Notes under the pieces: generated by a model
The model's database searches: none
What the model was told of the DNA's origin: nothing
Seen by the model: the letters and a program-made list of their open reading frames with translations, nothing else
Part shown: piece by piece, positions 10,529 through 16,723 of the stretch
How positions within the stretch are numbered: position 1 is the first letter of the stretch
Layout of the letters: each line of letters starts with the position of its first letter
Assembly: GCF_017094485.1 (NCBI RefSeq)
Contig: NZ_CP064786.1
Coordinates: forward strand, 1,364,001-1,428,000
DNA: 64,000 nucleotides
DNA from: Natranaeroarchaeum sulfidigenes
GTDB taxonomy: Archaea; Halobacteriota; Halobacteria; Halobacteriales; Natronoarchaeaceae
Direction: 5' to 3'
Translations under genes and position numbers: made by a program

Positions 10529-11899
10529 ATGGAGCGGTACGATGTAGCCGTCGTCGGTGGTGGTCCCGCCGGGACGAGTGCTGCCTGGGAAGCCGCAAAG
10601 CGCGGTGCCGAGGCAGTTGCCCTCGAAAAAGGTGTCCCCCGCGAGGATCGCGATCGGCTCGGCCCTGACTCGACGGACGCAGCGGGTATACTCGATTACT
10701 GGGTCGATATCATGGATATCGACTACGATCGGATCTCTGACGACGTGATTCACCGCCAGCTCGATGGAACTGATTTCATCGGCCCGTCCGAGGAGTTCGC
10801 GATGGACACAACTGGGATCGACTCGTCGTACCCGAACTTCGGGTTCACGTTTCACCGTGCCCGATTCGACGACTGGCTCCGCGACGAAGCCGAGAGCTCG
10901 GGCGCGGAGTATCGGGTCGGCGTGAGCGTTGTCGACGTCGAGACGGATCGCGGGGACGATCCCAGACACGTCGTCGAACTGCGTAACGGCGACGAGATCG
11001 GAGCCGATGTCCTGATCCTCGCGGATGGGCCACAGCGACAGATGACCAACCGGGTCCTCGACCGTTATTTGCCCGCCGAGGAGTCGATCACCGACTACCT
11101 CGGCACGACCCACGCCAACCACATCGCCTATCAGGAGTACCGGGAGATTCCCCAGGAACTGTTCGACGAATCGCGGCTCAAATTCTGGTGGGGATACATC
11201 CCCGGTGAGACGGCCTATCCGTGGGTGTTTCCCAACGACGGCACCGTCGCCCGCGTCGGGTTGACGATGCCGATCGGACTCGGTATCGACGACGTCGAGA
11301 ACCCGACGGACTACGTCCTCGTCGACGAGGACGACGAGCAACTACCCTCCCCAGGGGAGTATCTTCGACGACTGCTCGAACACGAGTACGGTGACGAGTA
11401 CGACGTCGACGAGGACTTCCCGATCGTCGAGGACAGAGGCAAACAGAACGGGACGGAGACGTATCCTATCTCCTCGACCCGACCGATCGACTCGCCTACT
11501 GAGGCGGGTATCCTGGTCGCCGGTGGAGCGATGGGGACGACGTCGGCGTTCCACGAGGGGGGCGACCACGTCGCCATACGGACTGGGAAGATCGCGGGTG
11601 AGCTGGCAGCTGACGGGGATCTCCGCGCCTACAACGACCGGTGGAAGGCGGCGATCGGCGCTGAGATCACGCGAAACGTCACCTTCGCGGATATCGTCGA
11701 GGACTACGGGCCAGCCGACTGGGACCGGACGTTCTCCGTCGCCAGCGATCTGACCGCACCCGAGGAGGGGAAATTGATCGACTGGGAGCTACGCTCTGGC
11801 TTCAGTGCGATGAAACTACTGAGCACGTACAAGCGGACAAAATTCAGCTATCGGAACGGAAAGTACGTACAGTTCCACGAGTCGAAATACGAGATCTAG
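10529..11899 (+). CDS. Geranylgeranyl reductase family flavoprotein
   Basis: 456 residues. FAD-dependent oxidoreductase with the N-terminal VVGGGPAGTSAAWEAAKRG dinucleotide fold, ILADGP in the middle, and GETAYPWVFPNDGTVARVGL near residue 230. This last segment corresponds to the Y-x-W-x-F-P motif lining the prenyl pocket of geranylgeranyl reductases. A second FAD contact is GILVAGGAMGTTSAFHEGG. Relatives saturate archaeal lipid or quinone side chains; which substrate applies here is unclear, since haloarchaea carry several paralogues. The start is set by family alignment and a GGATTAATG box 29 bp upstream. Its stop overlaps the convergent cohesin gene by 4 nt. Confidence 0.85.
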   Translation: MERYDVAVVGGGPAGTSAAWEAAKRGAEAVALEKGVPREDRDRLGPDSTDAAGILDYWVDIMDIDYDRISDDVIHRQLDGTDFIGPSEEFAMDTTGIDSSYPNFGFTFHRARFDDWLRDEAESSGAEYRVGVSVVDVETDRGDDPRHVVELRNGDEIGADVLILADGPQRQMTNRVLDRYLPAEESITDYLGTTHANHIAYQEYREIPQELFDESRLKFWWGYIPGETAYPWVFPNDGTVARVGLTMPIGLGIDDVENPTDYVLVDEDDEQLPSPGEYLRRLLEHEYGDEYDVDEDFPIVEDRGKQNGTETYPISSTRPIDSPTEAGILVAGGAMGTTSAFHEGGDHVAIRTGKIAGELAADGDLRAYNDRWKAAIGAEITRNVTFADIVEDYGPADWDRTFSVASDLTAPEEGKLIDWELRSGFSAMKLLSTYKRTKFSYRNGKYVQFHESKYEI

Positions 11900-12570
11900 C
11901 GCCTGTCGAACCGACTCCTGACTACCGCGACGAGCACCACTGCAAGCATCGCGAGACCGATTCCGAAGCCGGACATCGAGTTGTCCCCAGACTCGTACCC
12001 CTCCGGCGGTCCAGCGTCGACTACTGACGCATCCTCGTCCACCACGAGCGTTCCGTCATGGAGGAACACCTGCTGTGGCCACTCGTTGGTCAGCGAGGAG
12101 TGAGCGTCGGTGAGTTCGAGGTCGTACTCTCCCTCCTCGGCGTCCTCGTCGACGGTGAACGTGAATGTCACGAACCTGTCCTGCCCAGTTGCCCCGCCCT
12201 CGTGCGGTTCTCGATCCTGACCGATCCACACGTAGCCTGCCTCGTCGTCGACTTCAGTCTCCGTCACGATGTCGGTCTCGTTACCTTGCTCCATCCACGG
12301 GCCGCGCTCGACGGACTCGAGCGTCAACACGTCGGGATCATACTCCATTCCGACTGATGTGTTGTCTACACCCACGTCACCGTAGCCGCCGTCGCTGGTC
12401 ATCAATATCCCGATGTGAACCGTCTCTCCTGGTGGCGCTTCGTTCGTGTCCGGATCGACCTGCAGGATCGTCGCGTTGTCACTCCCGCCGGTTGTCCCGA
12501 TCACGGCTCCGAGTCCCGCCGTAGCGATCAGCAGTCCTGCTACAACGACGATCGTGTGCGTTCGGCTCAT
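11896..12570 (-). CDS. Cohesin-domain surface protein with PGF-CTERM-like anchor
   Basis: 224 residues. A signal peptide (VVVAGLLIATAGLGAVIG) is followed by a cohesin-like domain: ATILQVDPDTNEAPPGETVHIGI, GMEYDPDVLTLESVE, FVTFTFTVDEDAEEGEYDLELT. The C-terminus SMSGFGIGLAMLAVVLVAVV-RSRFDRR looks like a PGF-CTERM archaeosortase signal in which PGF is replaced by SGF. Cohesin-like domains mediate protein-protein contact on the cell surface. The gene starts 2 nt after the stop of the Tp34-like gene, so it is its operon partner and may act with it outside the membrane. Confidence 0.8.
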   Translation of the reverse strand: MSRTHTIVVVAGLLIATAGLGAVIGTTGGSDNATILQVDPDTNEAPPGETVHIGILMTSDGGYGDVGVDNTSVGMEYDPDVLTLESVERGPWMEQGNETDIVTETEVDDEAGYVWIGQDREPHEGGATGQDRFVTFTFTVDEDAEEGEYDLELTDAHSSLTNEWPQQVFLHDGTLVVDEDASVVDAGPPEGYESGDNSMSGFGIGLAMLAVVLVAVVRSRFDRR

Positions 12571-12572
12571 GA

Positions 12573-13868
12573 TTACAGATCGTCAATCTCGACCCGTAAC
12601 TCCCCGGTTTCGGTGAACGCCGTCTCGTATCCCTGATGACGGGAAGCCTGTGTGACCGAATCAATAGAAAGAACGAGTTCGTCTCCGTTCTGTAACTCCT
12701 CTACCGGCGTCCCGTAATGGAATTCGAGGTCGTGATCCAGTGTTGGCTGTAGGCTACCGAGATCGATCGTCTCGCCGTCACGTTCGATCGTCGCCGAGAC
12801 CGACATCTGTGGAAGTACACATCGGTTGTACGGCGTCCGGGGTGAGACGACGAGATACTGATCGTCTTCCTCGACGAATCGCGAGCCAGCTTCTACGAGG
12901 GTCGTCGCATAGACGGCATCGTCGAACGTCGGCGTCCCGAGCAGGTCCCCGAGGAGGTGCTCCGGTTCGGGCAGGGACGAGTACGGCATATGGTGGTCGT
13001 CGTCGTGGTGGTCGTCGTCGTGGTGATCGTCGTCGTGATGGTCGTCGTCGTGGTGATCGTCGTCGTGGTGATCGTCGTCGTGATGGTCGTCGTCGTGGTG
13101 ATCGTCGTCGTGGTGATCGTCGTCGTGGTGATCGTCGTCGTGGTTGTGATCCATCGGCGGGACCGCCTCACGATCCCCCCATCGATCCTCGTCGAACAGT
13201 TCGACGGAGTCGACGAGGTGCTGGCGTCGTTCGGCGTCCATCTCGAAGTCGACGGTGACGGTTTCCGACGTCTGGAACCGGCCCTCCATCTCGCCGGTCA
13301 GACGAACATCCTCCATCGACCCTGTCGAGATGGTGGCCGTGTACTCTCCATCGCCGTCGAGTTCGTAGTTATCGCCGAAATGAAAGCCCATACCCTGCGA
13401 GATCATCGGCCATGGAGTTCGTGAATCGACGAGCTGGCCGTCCTTCTCGATCTCGATTGAGAGGCCGCTGTCGACAGGCAGGACGACCTCAGTCTCGGTG
13501 TCCCAGACAGTCGCCATAAAGTGGACTGAATCCCCCTCCGGCGGGTCGACCCGGTCGACAGTGTAGTCGTCGCCGATCCCGGTCTCAACGATCCAGAAGA
13601 AATGCGGGATAGAGAGCATCGGCGAAACGGCAACGTCACCGACGGTTTCGGTATCGAGCATCACCATGCCGTCGCGGTGAGAGGGGAGATAGACTGCATC
13701 CGGCGGGTTCTCGACCTGGGGCATGGCATCGAAGGCGTCTTCATCGTCGTTTGGTTCGCCCTCGGTGTCGTCAGTGTCTTCGGTGTCGTCGTCACCACCG
13801 AGACAGCCAGCCAGTCCTCCCAGCCCTGCGGCAGTCGCTCCCGTGTATATGAATCGACGGCGTTTCAT
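12573..13868 (-). CDS. Tp34/P19-like metal-binding Tat lipoprotein with (HHDDD)10 tract
   Basis: 431 residues. The N-terminus KRRRFIYTGATAAGLGGLAGC is a Tat signal with lipobox Cys22. A P19/Tp34-like beta-sandwich (periplasmic iron transporter family) covers about residues 45-215, including MISQGMGFHFGDNYELDGDG, which matches the metal-site loop with HYGDN of P19. Residues 243-293 are ten repeats of His-His-Asp-Asp-Asp. A second sandwich-like part (about 300-431) contains LDHDLEFHYGTP. P19 proteins bind Cu and Fe and feed FTR1-type or other iron uptake systems; no permease is adjacent. Start 13868 is chosen over 13886 because the TATA box lies 28 bp upstream of it. Confidence 0.85.
   Translation of the reverse strand: MKRRRFIYTGATAAGLGGLAGCLGGDDDTEDTDDTEGEPNDDEDAFDAMPQVENPPDAVYLPSHRDGMVMLDTETVGDVAVSPMLSIPHFFWIVETGIGDDYTVDRVDPPEGDSVHFMATVWDTETEVVLPVDSGLSIEIEKDGQLVDSRTPWPMISQGMGFHFGDNYELDGDGEYTATISTGSMEDVRLTGEMEGRFQTSETVTVDFEMDAERRQHLVDSVELFDEDRWGDREAVPPMDHNHDDDHHDDDHHDDDHHDDDHHDDDHHDDDHHDDDHHDDDHHDDDHHDDDHHMPYSSLPEPEHLLGDLLGTPTFDDAVYATTLVEAGSRFVEEDDQYLVVSPRTPYNRCVLPQMSVSATIERDGETIDLGSLQPTLDHDLEFHYGTPVEELQNGDELVLSIDSVTQASRHQGYETAFTETGELRVEIDDL
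12991..13140 (-). repeat. Ten tandem 15-bp repeats coding HHDDD
   Basis: Exactly ten 15-bp units, differing only at one or two third-position or His-codon changes (TGGTGATCGTCGTCG and variants on the + strand). They keep the reading frame and encode alternating His pairs and Asp triplets. Unit number is likely variable by slippage. Confidence 0.97.
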
Positions 13869-13891
13869 CTTGTGGTAAGTGGGCATCTGAG

Positions 13892-13975: not shown

Positions 13976-15289
13976 TCATTCGGGACGTGGGGATGGAAGC
14001 GCACGATGCTCTCGCGGTGGGATAAGGAAGTTCCCGCGTCGACGAACGGAGATGTACTGCAGGATCCCGTTGTTCAGTATCGAGCCGATCGGAAGATCGG
14101 TGCCGGTCATCGCTTCTCGTGTTTTGACGAAGTCCTCGATTTCGCGCTGGACGGAGACGAAGTGGAGTCCGGCGATATCGTCGTCGGTCGTATCAAAGTC
14201 GCGTCGAAGGATGATCGGCGAGCCGTCCTCGCGAGCCCTGGCCGTCTTCTGTGCGTGGCCAACCATCCCTCCGGAGGCGTCTGATTCAGTCTGTTCGACA
14301 ACGTCCTCGACTTCCGGGGAGTCGGTGAGCTTCTCGCCGTACTCGCCGACGCGGTCCTCGCGTTCGTGGGTGGGACTAAACATCTTTGCGACGCGAACCG
14401 CCTGGCTATCCTGCTCCCACCACTGGTCGAGTTGTTGGCGGATCTTCGAGACGTGCTGGGTGGTGCCACCGGCGAAGGGGCCGTCCTGAATCGTCACCCG
14501 CTCCTCGCTGGGCTGGCTCTTCTTGAAGCGACCGCGAAACCCCATAAACATCGGCGCTTCCTCGGGAATCGGGTAGTCATCCGGGATCCCGGTCGCGTCG
14601 GTGTTCGCGGTGGGTAGTCCGGCTCCGAAAAAGCCCGTCCGGCGGTCTGCGAGATCGAATACGTCCGAAAGACGATCCTCCACGGTGACCCCGTTCACCG
14701 TGTCAGAGTCCGTATTCTGGGGCTCGGCGTCCGACCCACTGAGTGCGTCCGCCTCGCCAAACATCGCCAGTTCGGCTTCGAGCAACGCAACGGGCTCGTC
14801 GCTCGCGAAGTGGACGAGCGCATCGTACGTATCCAGGTCGTCGTCGTTGAGGTCTTCCAGCGGTGTCAGGGTGGTCGGGGCAGGGAGATCTACACTCTCG
14901 GGGAGGGATTCCTCGTACCGGTCGAAGTACGACGGGGAGTATCCTATCGTGAACACGAGCCCGTCGTTGCTCCACTCGTAGGCACGCTCAAGGGTTTTCA
15001 ATGCTGACTCAACCGTTTCACGACCGGTATCGGTGGGTTCGCCGTTCAGTTCGAGATACGCCAGTACGTGATGCCGCGGAAGTCGAACGTTTCCGTGCTC
15101 GTCCGCCTCGAAAAACGAGTCCCACTCGTGCTGGCCCGCGGGGAGGTCATCGAATTCGTCCGTACCGGATGGTATTTCGATATCGTCGTCCTCGCCGAGG
15201 CAGGCTGACAGAGCCCCTGCACCACCGACTGCAACGAGGGACTTCACGTACTCGCGGCGGGACAGCCCCTCTGGGTCGGGAAGCGACAT
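13976..15289 (-). CDS. DyP-type peroxidase-like Tat lipoprotein
   Basis: 437 residues. N-terminus SRREYVKSLVAVGGAGALSAC is a Tat signal and lipobox. The C-terminal half follows the DyP/EfeB pattern: PFAGGTTQHVSKIRQQLDQWW, GHAQKTARA (position of the proximal haem His), ILRRDFD, IAGLHFVSVQREIEDFV. However, the GxxDG active-site motif is replaced by MGFRGRFKK, losing the catalytic Asp. EfeB-type DyPs accompany ferrous-iron or haem uptake. Here the neighbour is a Tp34-like metal lipoprotein on the same strand. It may be a haem or metal chaperone rather than a peroxidase. An 86-nt gap and a separate promoter precede the next gene. Confidence 0.75.
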   Translation of the reverse strand: MSLPDPEGLSRREYVKSLVAVGGAGALSACLGEDDDIEIPSGTDEFDDLPAGQHEWDSFFEADEHGNVRLPRHHVLAYLELNGEPTDTGRETVESALKTLERAYEWSNDGLVFTIGYSPSYFDRYEESLPESVDLPAPTTLTPLEDLNDDDLDTYDALVHFASDEPVALLEAELAMFGEADALSGSDAEPQNTDSDTVNGVTVEDRLSDVFDLADRRTGFFGAGLPTANTDATGIPDDYPIPEEAPMFMGFRGRFKKSQPSEERVTIQDGPFAGGTTQHVSKIRQQLDQWWEQDSQAVRVAKMFSPTHEREDRVGEYGEKLTDSPEVEDVVEQTESDASGGMVGHAQKTARAREDGSPIILRRDFDTTDDDIAGLHFVSVQREIEDFVKTREAMTGTDLPIGSILNNGILQYISVRRRGNFLIPPREHRALPSPRPE

Positions 15290-15478: not shown

Positions 15479-16723
15479 ATGACGACCCGAGAAACTCGAC
15501 GTCGATTCCTGCAGACGAGTGCGGTCGCAGGCGGTATTGCACTCGCTGGCTGTCTCGGCGGCGACGATGACGAAAACGGAGCGGAGAACGGCGACGAAAA
15601 CGGCGACGAGAATGGTGAGGAGAACGGCGAAGAGGCGGCCGCCTTCGCCAGTGCCAGTCCGGTCTGTCACGACTACACGCACGACGGCGAGGCGTACGTC
15701 ACACTTGGCCCCAGCTACGCTGACGGCGGGCTGATCGTGTTCGATCCCGAATCGTTCGAGATCACCGAGGAGTTCCCGGACATCCCCGCGAACTGCGGGA
15801 CGCTCGCACACCCGACCGAGGAGAAGTTTTACGTTAACGCTGGAAGCGCGGACACGGAGGAGGCCGACGGCGCAGGTGACTGGTGGGTCTTCGATACCGA
15901 GAGCCATGAGATGATCGGCGACACCCGGAGTACCGAGGGCTACGACGCACACGGCGTCATGTTCACACCCGACAACGAGGAGCTGTGGATGGTCAACCGT
16001 GACACCGACGACGGCGTCATCATCGACCCTGAGACCGACGAGGTCATCGAGGAGATCGACGAAGTCGGCGAGTCCCCGGATATTCTCGCTGCCTCGCCCG
16101 ACGGCGAATTCATGTTCGCTTCAACGCGTGGTCCAGAAGAGTACTCCGGACCACACGCGATCGCTGGCACTGAACCCGGCGTTGCGGTCATCGACGTCGA
16201 AAGCCGTGAGCTGGTCGAGGTCGTAGAACCTGATCAGGACTACACTGAAGAGGAGATCGAGGACTCGGATTCCCCAACCCCCGACTTCCATGCGATCAAT
16301 GTCGTTCCCGGCGAAAGCGAGGATGAGTATGAGGTCTGGGCGATCGATCAGGGTCGAGCGAACATGTACGTGCTCGAACCCAGTGGGGATTCGATCGAGG
16401 TAACTGAGGAAGTCAACCTGGGTGAAGGAACTGAGGAAGTGCCTCACATGGTCGAGTACGACAGCGAATATCGCTACGCCGCGATCGCCAGTACCGGCGG
16501 CGCGAAGACCCAGATCGTCCGGGTTGACGACTACGAGATCGTCGAAGAGCTCGATACCGGCGCTGGGTCGCACTTCGCCGGCTGGAACCCCGGCGACGAG
16601 ACGCTTCTGGTGGACGTCATCGGCGACACGAAATTCGTCGAGATCGAGGCGGACATCGAAGAAGAGGAGTTCGAGATCGGTCAGGAGCTTGTGCTCTCCG
16701 AACTCGACCAGTTCCCGAACTGA
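15479..16723 (+). CDS. Beta-propeller (YncE/YVTN-like) Tat lipoprotein
   Basis: 414 residues. TRRRFLQTSAVAGGIALAGC is a Tat signal with lipobox, followed by a low-complexity spacer of repeated GDEN/GEEN. The rest shows repeating propeller blades: GGLIVFDPESFEITEEFPD, DGVIIDPETDEVIEEI, GVAVIDVESRELVEVVEP, YVLEPSGDSIEVTEEV, TQIVRVDDYEIVEELDTG. Such surface propellers act as binding scaffolds; no catalytic site is recognisable. A TCTTTTATT element about 27 bp before the ATG at 15479 fits a leaderless start. It is transcribed divergently from the DyP-like gene across a 189-bp region, suggesting joint regulation. Confidence 0.85.
   Translation: MTTRETRRRFLQTSAVAGGIALAGCLGGDDDENGAENGDENGDENGEENGEEAAAFASASPVCHDYTHDGEAYVTLGPSYADGGLIVFDPESFEITEEFPDIPANCGTLAHPTEEKFYVNAGSADTEEADGAGDWWVFDTESHEMIGDTRSTEGYDAHGVMFTPDNEELWMVNRDTDDGVIIDPETDEVIEEIDEVGESPDILAASPDGEFMFASTRGPEEYSGPHAIAGTEPGVAVIDVESRELVEVVEPDQDYTEEEIEDSDSPTPDFHAINVVPGESEDEYEVWAIDQGRANMYVLEPSGDSIEVTEEVNLGEGTEEVPHMVEYDSEYRYAAIASTGGAKTQIVRVDDYEIVEELDTGAGSHFAGWNPGDETLLVDVIGDTKFVEIEADIEEEEFEIGQELVLSELDQFPN

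Follow-up and report, generated by a model that had tools for sequence, protein, structure and literature searches.

An exact ten-unit His/Asp repeat as a probable metal-binding linker arm in a P19-like haloarchaeal lipoprotein

In a 64,000-nucleotide stretch of Natranaeroarchaeum sulfidigenes DNA (NZ_CP064786.1, positions 1,364,001 to 1,428,000; hereafter the window), a gene for a Tat lipoprotein carries an exact tenfold DDDHH repeat between its two domains. Judging from sequence comparison, we consider it probable (at roughly 0.6) that this tract is a disordered linker arm which binds divalent metals weakly and at many sites on a P19-like surface lipoprotein. We also infer that such binding is of a weak, high-capacity mode and that metal is handed over to the first domain. 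The array belongs to a known kind of metal-protein tract, for which it is unusually regular; its coordinates and those of the surrounding features are given in Table 1.

Table 1. Features of the repeat-bearing lipoprotein gene and its neighbours, in window positions
Feature	Position	Strand	Evidence
Tat lipoprotein gene: P19-like domain, His/Asp tract and DUF7350 domain	12573..13868	(-)	ORF, Pfam
Tat signal, lipobox LAGC (Cys28, codon 13805-13803) and acidic N-terminal linker GGDDDTEDTDDTEGEPNDDEDA	13731..13868	(-)	sequence
P19/FetP/FtrA-like domain with His95, His122, Met124, Met161, Met166 and His169	13161..13748	(-)	PDB profile, AlphaFold2, Foldseek, conservation
(DDDHH)x10 tract, predicted disordered interdomain linker	12990..13139	(-)	codon register, TRF, AlphaFold2
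DUF7350 domain, keeping HYG His390 and His417	12576..12989	(-)	PF24041, hhalign
DUF7405 / Dyp-type peroxidase-like Tat lipoprotein, upstream, same strand	13976..15289	(-)	PF24152 497 bits, PF20628 23.1 bits
Cohesin-domain protein, downstream, starting 2 bp past the stop	11896..12570	(-)	PF00963 35 bits
Divergent beta-propeller-like Tat lipoprotein	15479..16723	(+)	weak YncE/cytochrome D1 matches

The minus-strand open reading frame spans 12573-13886 and encodes 437 amino acids from an upstream ATG at 13886; a start at MKRRRF, giving 431 amino acids, is more likely than this upstream ATG. In the 437-residue form, residues 250-299 read exactly (DDDHH)x10, preceded by the motif PPMDHNH. An earlier sequence-only reading had described an in-frame tandem tract of twenty His and thirty Asp on a lipoprotein, and this description holds: the counts are 20 and 30, TRF finds a period of 15 in the window (10.3 copies, 93% matches, 12991-13144), the tract in codon register is (DDDHH)x10 at 12990-13139, and the Tat signal and lipobox identify a lipoprotein by sequence. 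The coordinates proposed at that time, 12991-13140, mark the right tract and are one base off its codon register, and a division into HHDDD yields nine full units plus part units. The tract had also been called ten perfect 15-bp repeats, which is exact for the protein but not for the DNA, where four unit types follow one another in the order A A A B A A B A C D with a mean pairwise identity of 92.7%; the units differ at three wobble positions and every difference is silent. Since residue shuffling of 20 His and 30 Asp gives a perfect period-5 order with a probability of only 2e-13, this order is not a product of chance. The AAB block occurs twice, which suggests a 45-bp duplication within the tract.

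The first domain scores just above the cut-off of the Pfam family Iron_transport (PF10634; 22.8 bits vs 21), a family named for Fe2+ transport, and the second is matched by DUF7350 (PF24041; 166 bits vs a cut-off of 27). A PDB search with this single sequence gave no useful match and a family profile was needed: a profile of 65 members retrieved Brucella FtrA (E 2.4e-8) as well as Rubrivivax FtrA-P19, E. coli FetP and Tp34, and PF10634 itself matches 65/65 of these relatives (E up to 0.01). The AlphaFold2 model, built on the 431-residue form, has two confident beta domains and an uncertain stretch across the tract region (block pLDDT 47-51 over residues 241-290), and Foldseek assigns the model to P19/FetP/FtrA at probability 1.00, with a target TM of about 0.54-0.66. 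Because profiles of the N- and C-terminal domains align with each other in hhalign at 96% (P 3.8e-9), DUF7350 looks like a duplicate of the P19-like domain that has since diverged. On the side of classification, PF24041 and PF10634 are two Pfam families that may belong together.

The P19 ligands His42, Met88 and His95, with their numbering fitted to the FtrA alignment, presumably correspond to His122, Met161 and His169 of the first domain, and Met166 sits beside this site in the same alignment. His122, Met161 and His169 are present in 65/65 relatives and are invariant there together with Met124 and Met166, a result biased by the use of both motifs, HxM and MxSQxMGxH, as search patterns. Among 50 members found without those patterns, M-x-S-Q-x-M-G-x-H is matched strictly in 47/50 and HxM in 38/50, and the ten exceptions printed all have H-[L/I]-M plus either M-x-S-Q-x-M-G-x-H or MFSQRMGFH. 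A further P19 ligand, His132, corresponds to a first-domain stretch in which no His is conserved and the alignment is weak. In P19, Glu44 and Asp46 are part of the manganese (likely iron) site (PMC9174327). Their positions, mapped through a distant alignment, are taken here by Met124 and Thr126, with Met in 65/65 and Thr in 55/65 relatives. Since the protein lacks these acidic residues but retains the Met/His ones, copper appears at least as likely as iron to be the metal, and the make-up of the Met/His site leans towards copper.

A P19-type site beside the tract had been part of the sequence-only reading; profile and fold bear out the P19-type domain, and what it lacks is the acidic iron-site residues. 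The lipoprotein thus shares with P19/FetP/FtrA the first-domain profile, the fold and the three matching His and Met residues, and differs from them in the change of Glu44/Asp46 to Met/Thr, in the fusion of two domains, in being a lipoprotein and in its long His/Asp linker. Moreover, a profile search of the genome gave no match to an FTR1-type permease (PF03239). Filing the protein as a P19-Ftr1 iron system was therefore rejected, because two defining features, the acidic iron-site residues and an FTR1 partner, were looked for and not found.

Comparison with haloarchaeal relatives shows how variable the interdomain linker is. Among 140 members, which are related to one another so that the counts are not independent, 22 have at least three His in this linker, 25 have one or two and 93 have none. 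An MxM motif is found in 84/93 His-free linkers vs 2/22 His-rich ones, and in a Haloarcula member with MxM the linker is predicted to be ordered (block pLDDT 90-95). In the tree, every His-rich member falls within one 58-row part (support 88), where His-rich linkers were gained or lost several times, and the 10-row clade of the window protein has full support. In this part of the family, these sequences indicate, His/Asp/Gly tracts have taken the place of the short MxM motif that most haloarchaeal relatives carry. Many relatives of the same clade have no long tract, so the core function does not depend on it, which is a point against the metal-arm reading. One clade member (L097, 5345-6802) has a long Met-rich, GGMDD-type linker instead of a His/Asp tract.

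In a genome of the same genus (G001) the orthologue lies among the same genes; of 377 codons outside the tract, 84 show silent differences from the window gene and 18 encode another residue. This closest homologue has a His/Asp tract of about the same length (53 residues, DHGDHDDGHDHGDDHDDDHNHG..., vs 54 here) but lacks the perfect repeat: the periods that TRF detects there are all imperfect and overlapping, the order of residues differs, and the composition is 0.34 His and 0.45 Asp vs 0.41 and 0.57 in the window. Absence of the tract from close homologues had been named as grounds for refuting the sequence-only reading, and it applies by half, since the exact array is lacking and a His/Asp tract of equal length is present. 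The next relative, Natronorubrum texcoconense (L089), has a mixed tract too. Given these two tracts, the exact DDDHH array is most simply explained as a change in this lineage. The earlier claim of a recent expansion was nevertheless overstated, for silent differences between units amount to 0.218 per wobble site, close to the 0.178 (8/45) between the species at Asp/His codons, and the array need therefore not be very recent. Alternatively, older variants reshuffled by recombination could be the source of the divergence between units.

The pattern DDDHHDDDHH occurs in just 4/392 genomes of the class, and the three proteins that carry it in other genomes are Tat lipoproteins adjoining ZnuA genes. 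In the genome studied here, the single other match to the His/Asp-tract pattern (contig 965720-966151, L174) is again a Tat lipoprotein adjoining ZnuA. It has two long His/Asp tracts, and its gene is followed immediately by a ZnuA-type gene and preceded by a cupredoxin-like one; a protein similar to it precedes ZnuA at another locus (L069). Like the His-rich loop of ZnuA, the tract is a disordered insertion, rich in His and Asp, in a metal protein outside the cytoplasm, and haloarchaeal tracts of similar kind adjoin ZnuA genes. In contrast to that loop, it links two P19-like domains, is exactly periodic and lies outside any ZnuA domain, the ZnuA family PF01297 having no Pfam match in the lipoprotein. 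By analogy, the tract most likely works like the ZnuA His loop without being a member of that family. Metal-transport proteins of prokaryotes are enriched in His- and Asp-rich low-complexity regions (PMC6821194); His and Asp dominate here as well, with the difference that Asp outnumbers His and that the five-residue unit is exact. A CopI peptide with His/Asp binds Cu(II) while disordered (PMC13308877). CopI likewise joins disordered segments of His/Asp or Met to a copper-type domain, but it is a cupredoxin, whereas in the present family the site mostly holds either the His tract or the Met motif.

The tract might instead be a neutral or solubilising spacer that arose by replication slippage of an acidic flexible linker, as happens in many surface lipoproteins of haloarchaea, its His being incidental. 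Such an origin would be eased by the single base that separates CAC from GAC, and the sister species does not share the order of the repeat. The linker of a neighbouring lipoprotein, the divergent beta-propeller-like one, also repeats (a 12-bp tandem repeat at 15569-15634, encoding an acidic GDEN-type linker without His), and low-complexity regions of Halobacteria are strongly acidic (PMC6821194). The tendency of haloarchaea to expand acidic linkers could explain the Asp part. However, the N-terminal linkers of the 22 His-rich members are acidic as well (33% Asp+Glu) and yet contain 0 His in 358 residues, vs 195/1368 in their interdomain linkers; that of the window protein is likewise acidic and without His. 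Interdomain His exceeds N-terminal His in 47/47 members with any linker His, a result that is true in part by construction as members without linker His were left out. In addition, all three mutations that separate the units are silent, which mildly suggests that the residues are kept, though three mutations suffice to produce this, and comparable tracts sit at metal loci. With the reservation that the members are related, the His-specific pattern favours a role as ligands over that of a simple acidic spacer, and we think the spacer reading quite unlikely.

The neighbouring genes bear on the nature of the metal. A homologue of the DUF7405/Dyp-type gene lies upstream in 16/30 sampled loci. The downstream cohesin-domain protein has a possible PGF-CTERM anchor, with a score below the cut-off. 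The Dyp-type gene directly upstream, together with the Fe2+ transport name of PF10634, would suit an iron-uptake set in which the Dyp-type protein is EfeB-like and the tract catches ferrous iron. We regard this as rather unlikely, as FTR1 was not found in the genome, the acidic iron-site residues are absent, and the Dyp-type neighbour, present in 28/39 His-free loci, occurs more often at loci that lack the His tract. SCO1/SenC, TlpA-like or CcdA-like genes, the last named by eye as no family model matched, are neighbours in 23/43 His-linker loci vs 1/39 His-free loci, an association that follows clades. SCO1/SenC is a copper-chaperone family. One such SCO1/SenC-like neighbour (L092:7023-7997) has a His/Asp-rich stretch of its own (HADDHGDEDGHDHADHDH). 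A specific form of our main reading would accordingly be a copper protein with a Met/His copper site and the tract as a Cu(II) store or buffer, not involved in iron uptake, and we hold this for a serious possibility somewhat short of even odds. The SCO1/SenC-type or CcdA-like neighbours speak for it, as do the exchange of Glu44/Asp46 beside the kept His122, Met161 and His169 and the failure to find FTR1. On the other hand, the neighbours in the window are the Dyp-type peroxidase and the cohesin protein with no SCO1, thioredoxins accompany the Campylobacter P19 iron system too (PMC6083913), and the position mapping and the SCO1 association are subject to the reservations given above.

On the reading that we favour, the interdomain site, which normally carries a short Met motif, came to hold His/Asp/Gly tracts instead in one part of the haloarchaeal family; the exact DDDHH array would then be the product of slippage or unequal crossing-over in this lineage. 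Its clustered imidazoles and carboxylates would most likely bind many divalent transition metal ions, each of them weakly, and the tract would hold or gather them next to the first domain with its His/Met site, as is supposed for the His-rich loop of ZnuA.

DUF7350 is present in 337/392 sampled genomes of the class and is named in no paper within the literature searched. A broader and more speculative proposal, which we put forward as doubtful, is that DUF7350 proteins are a branch of the P19 fold in haloarchaea, made of two fused domains and turned copper-type Met/His protein. Their interdomain linker would be an evolvable ligand cassette that takes the form of an ordered Met motif or of a disordered His/Asp arm, depending on whether Cu(I) or else Cu(II) and other divalent metals are to be bound. 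The analysis of the tract gives a testable function to this widespread family, and the natural series from Met motif through short His and long mixed His/Asp linkers to the exact repeat is suited to the study of low-complexity metal arms.
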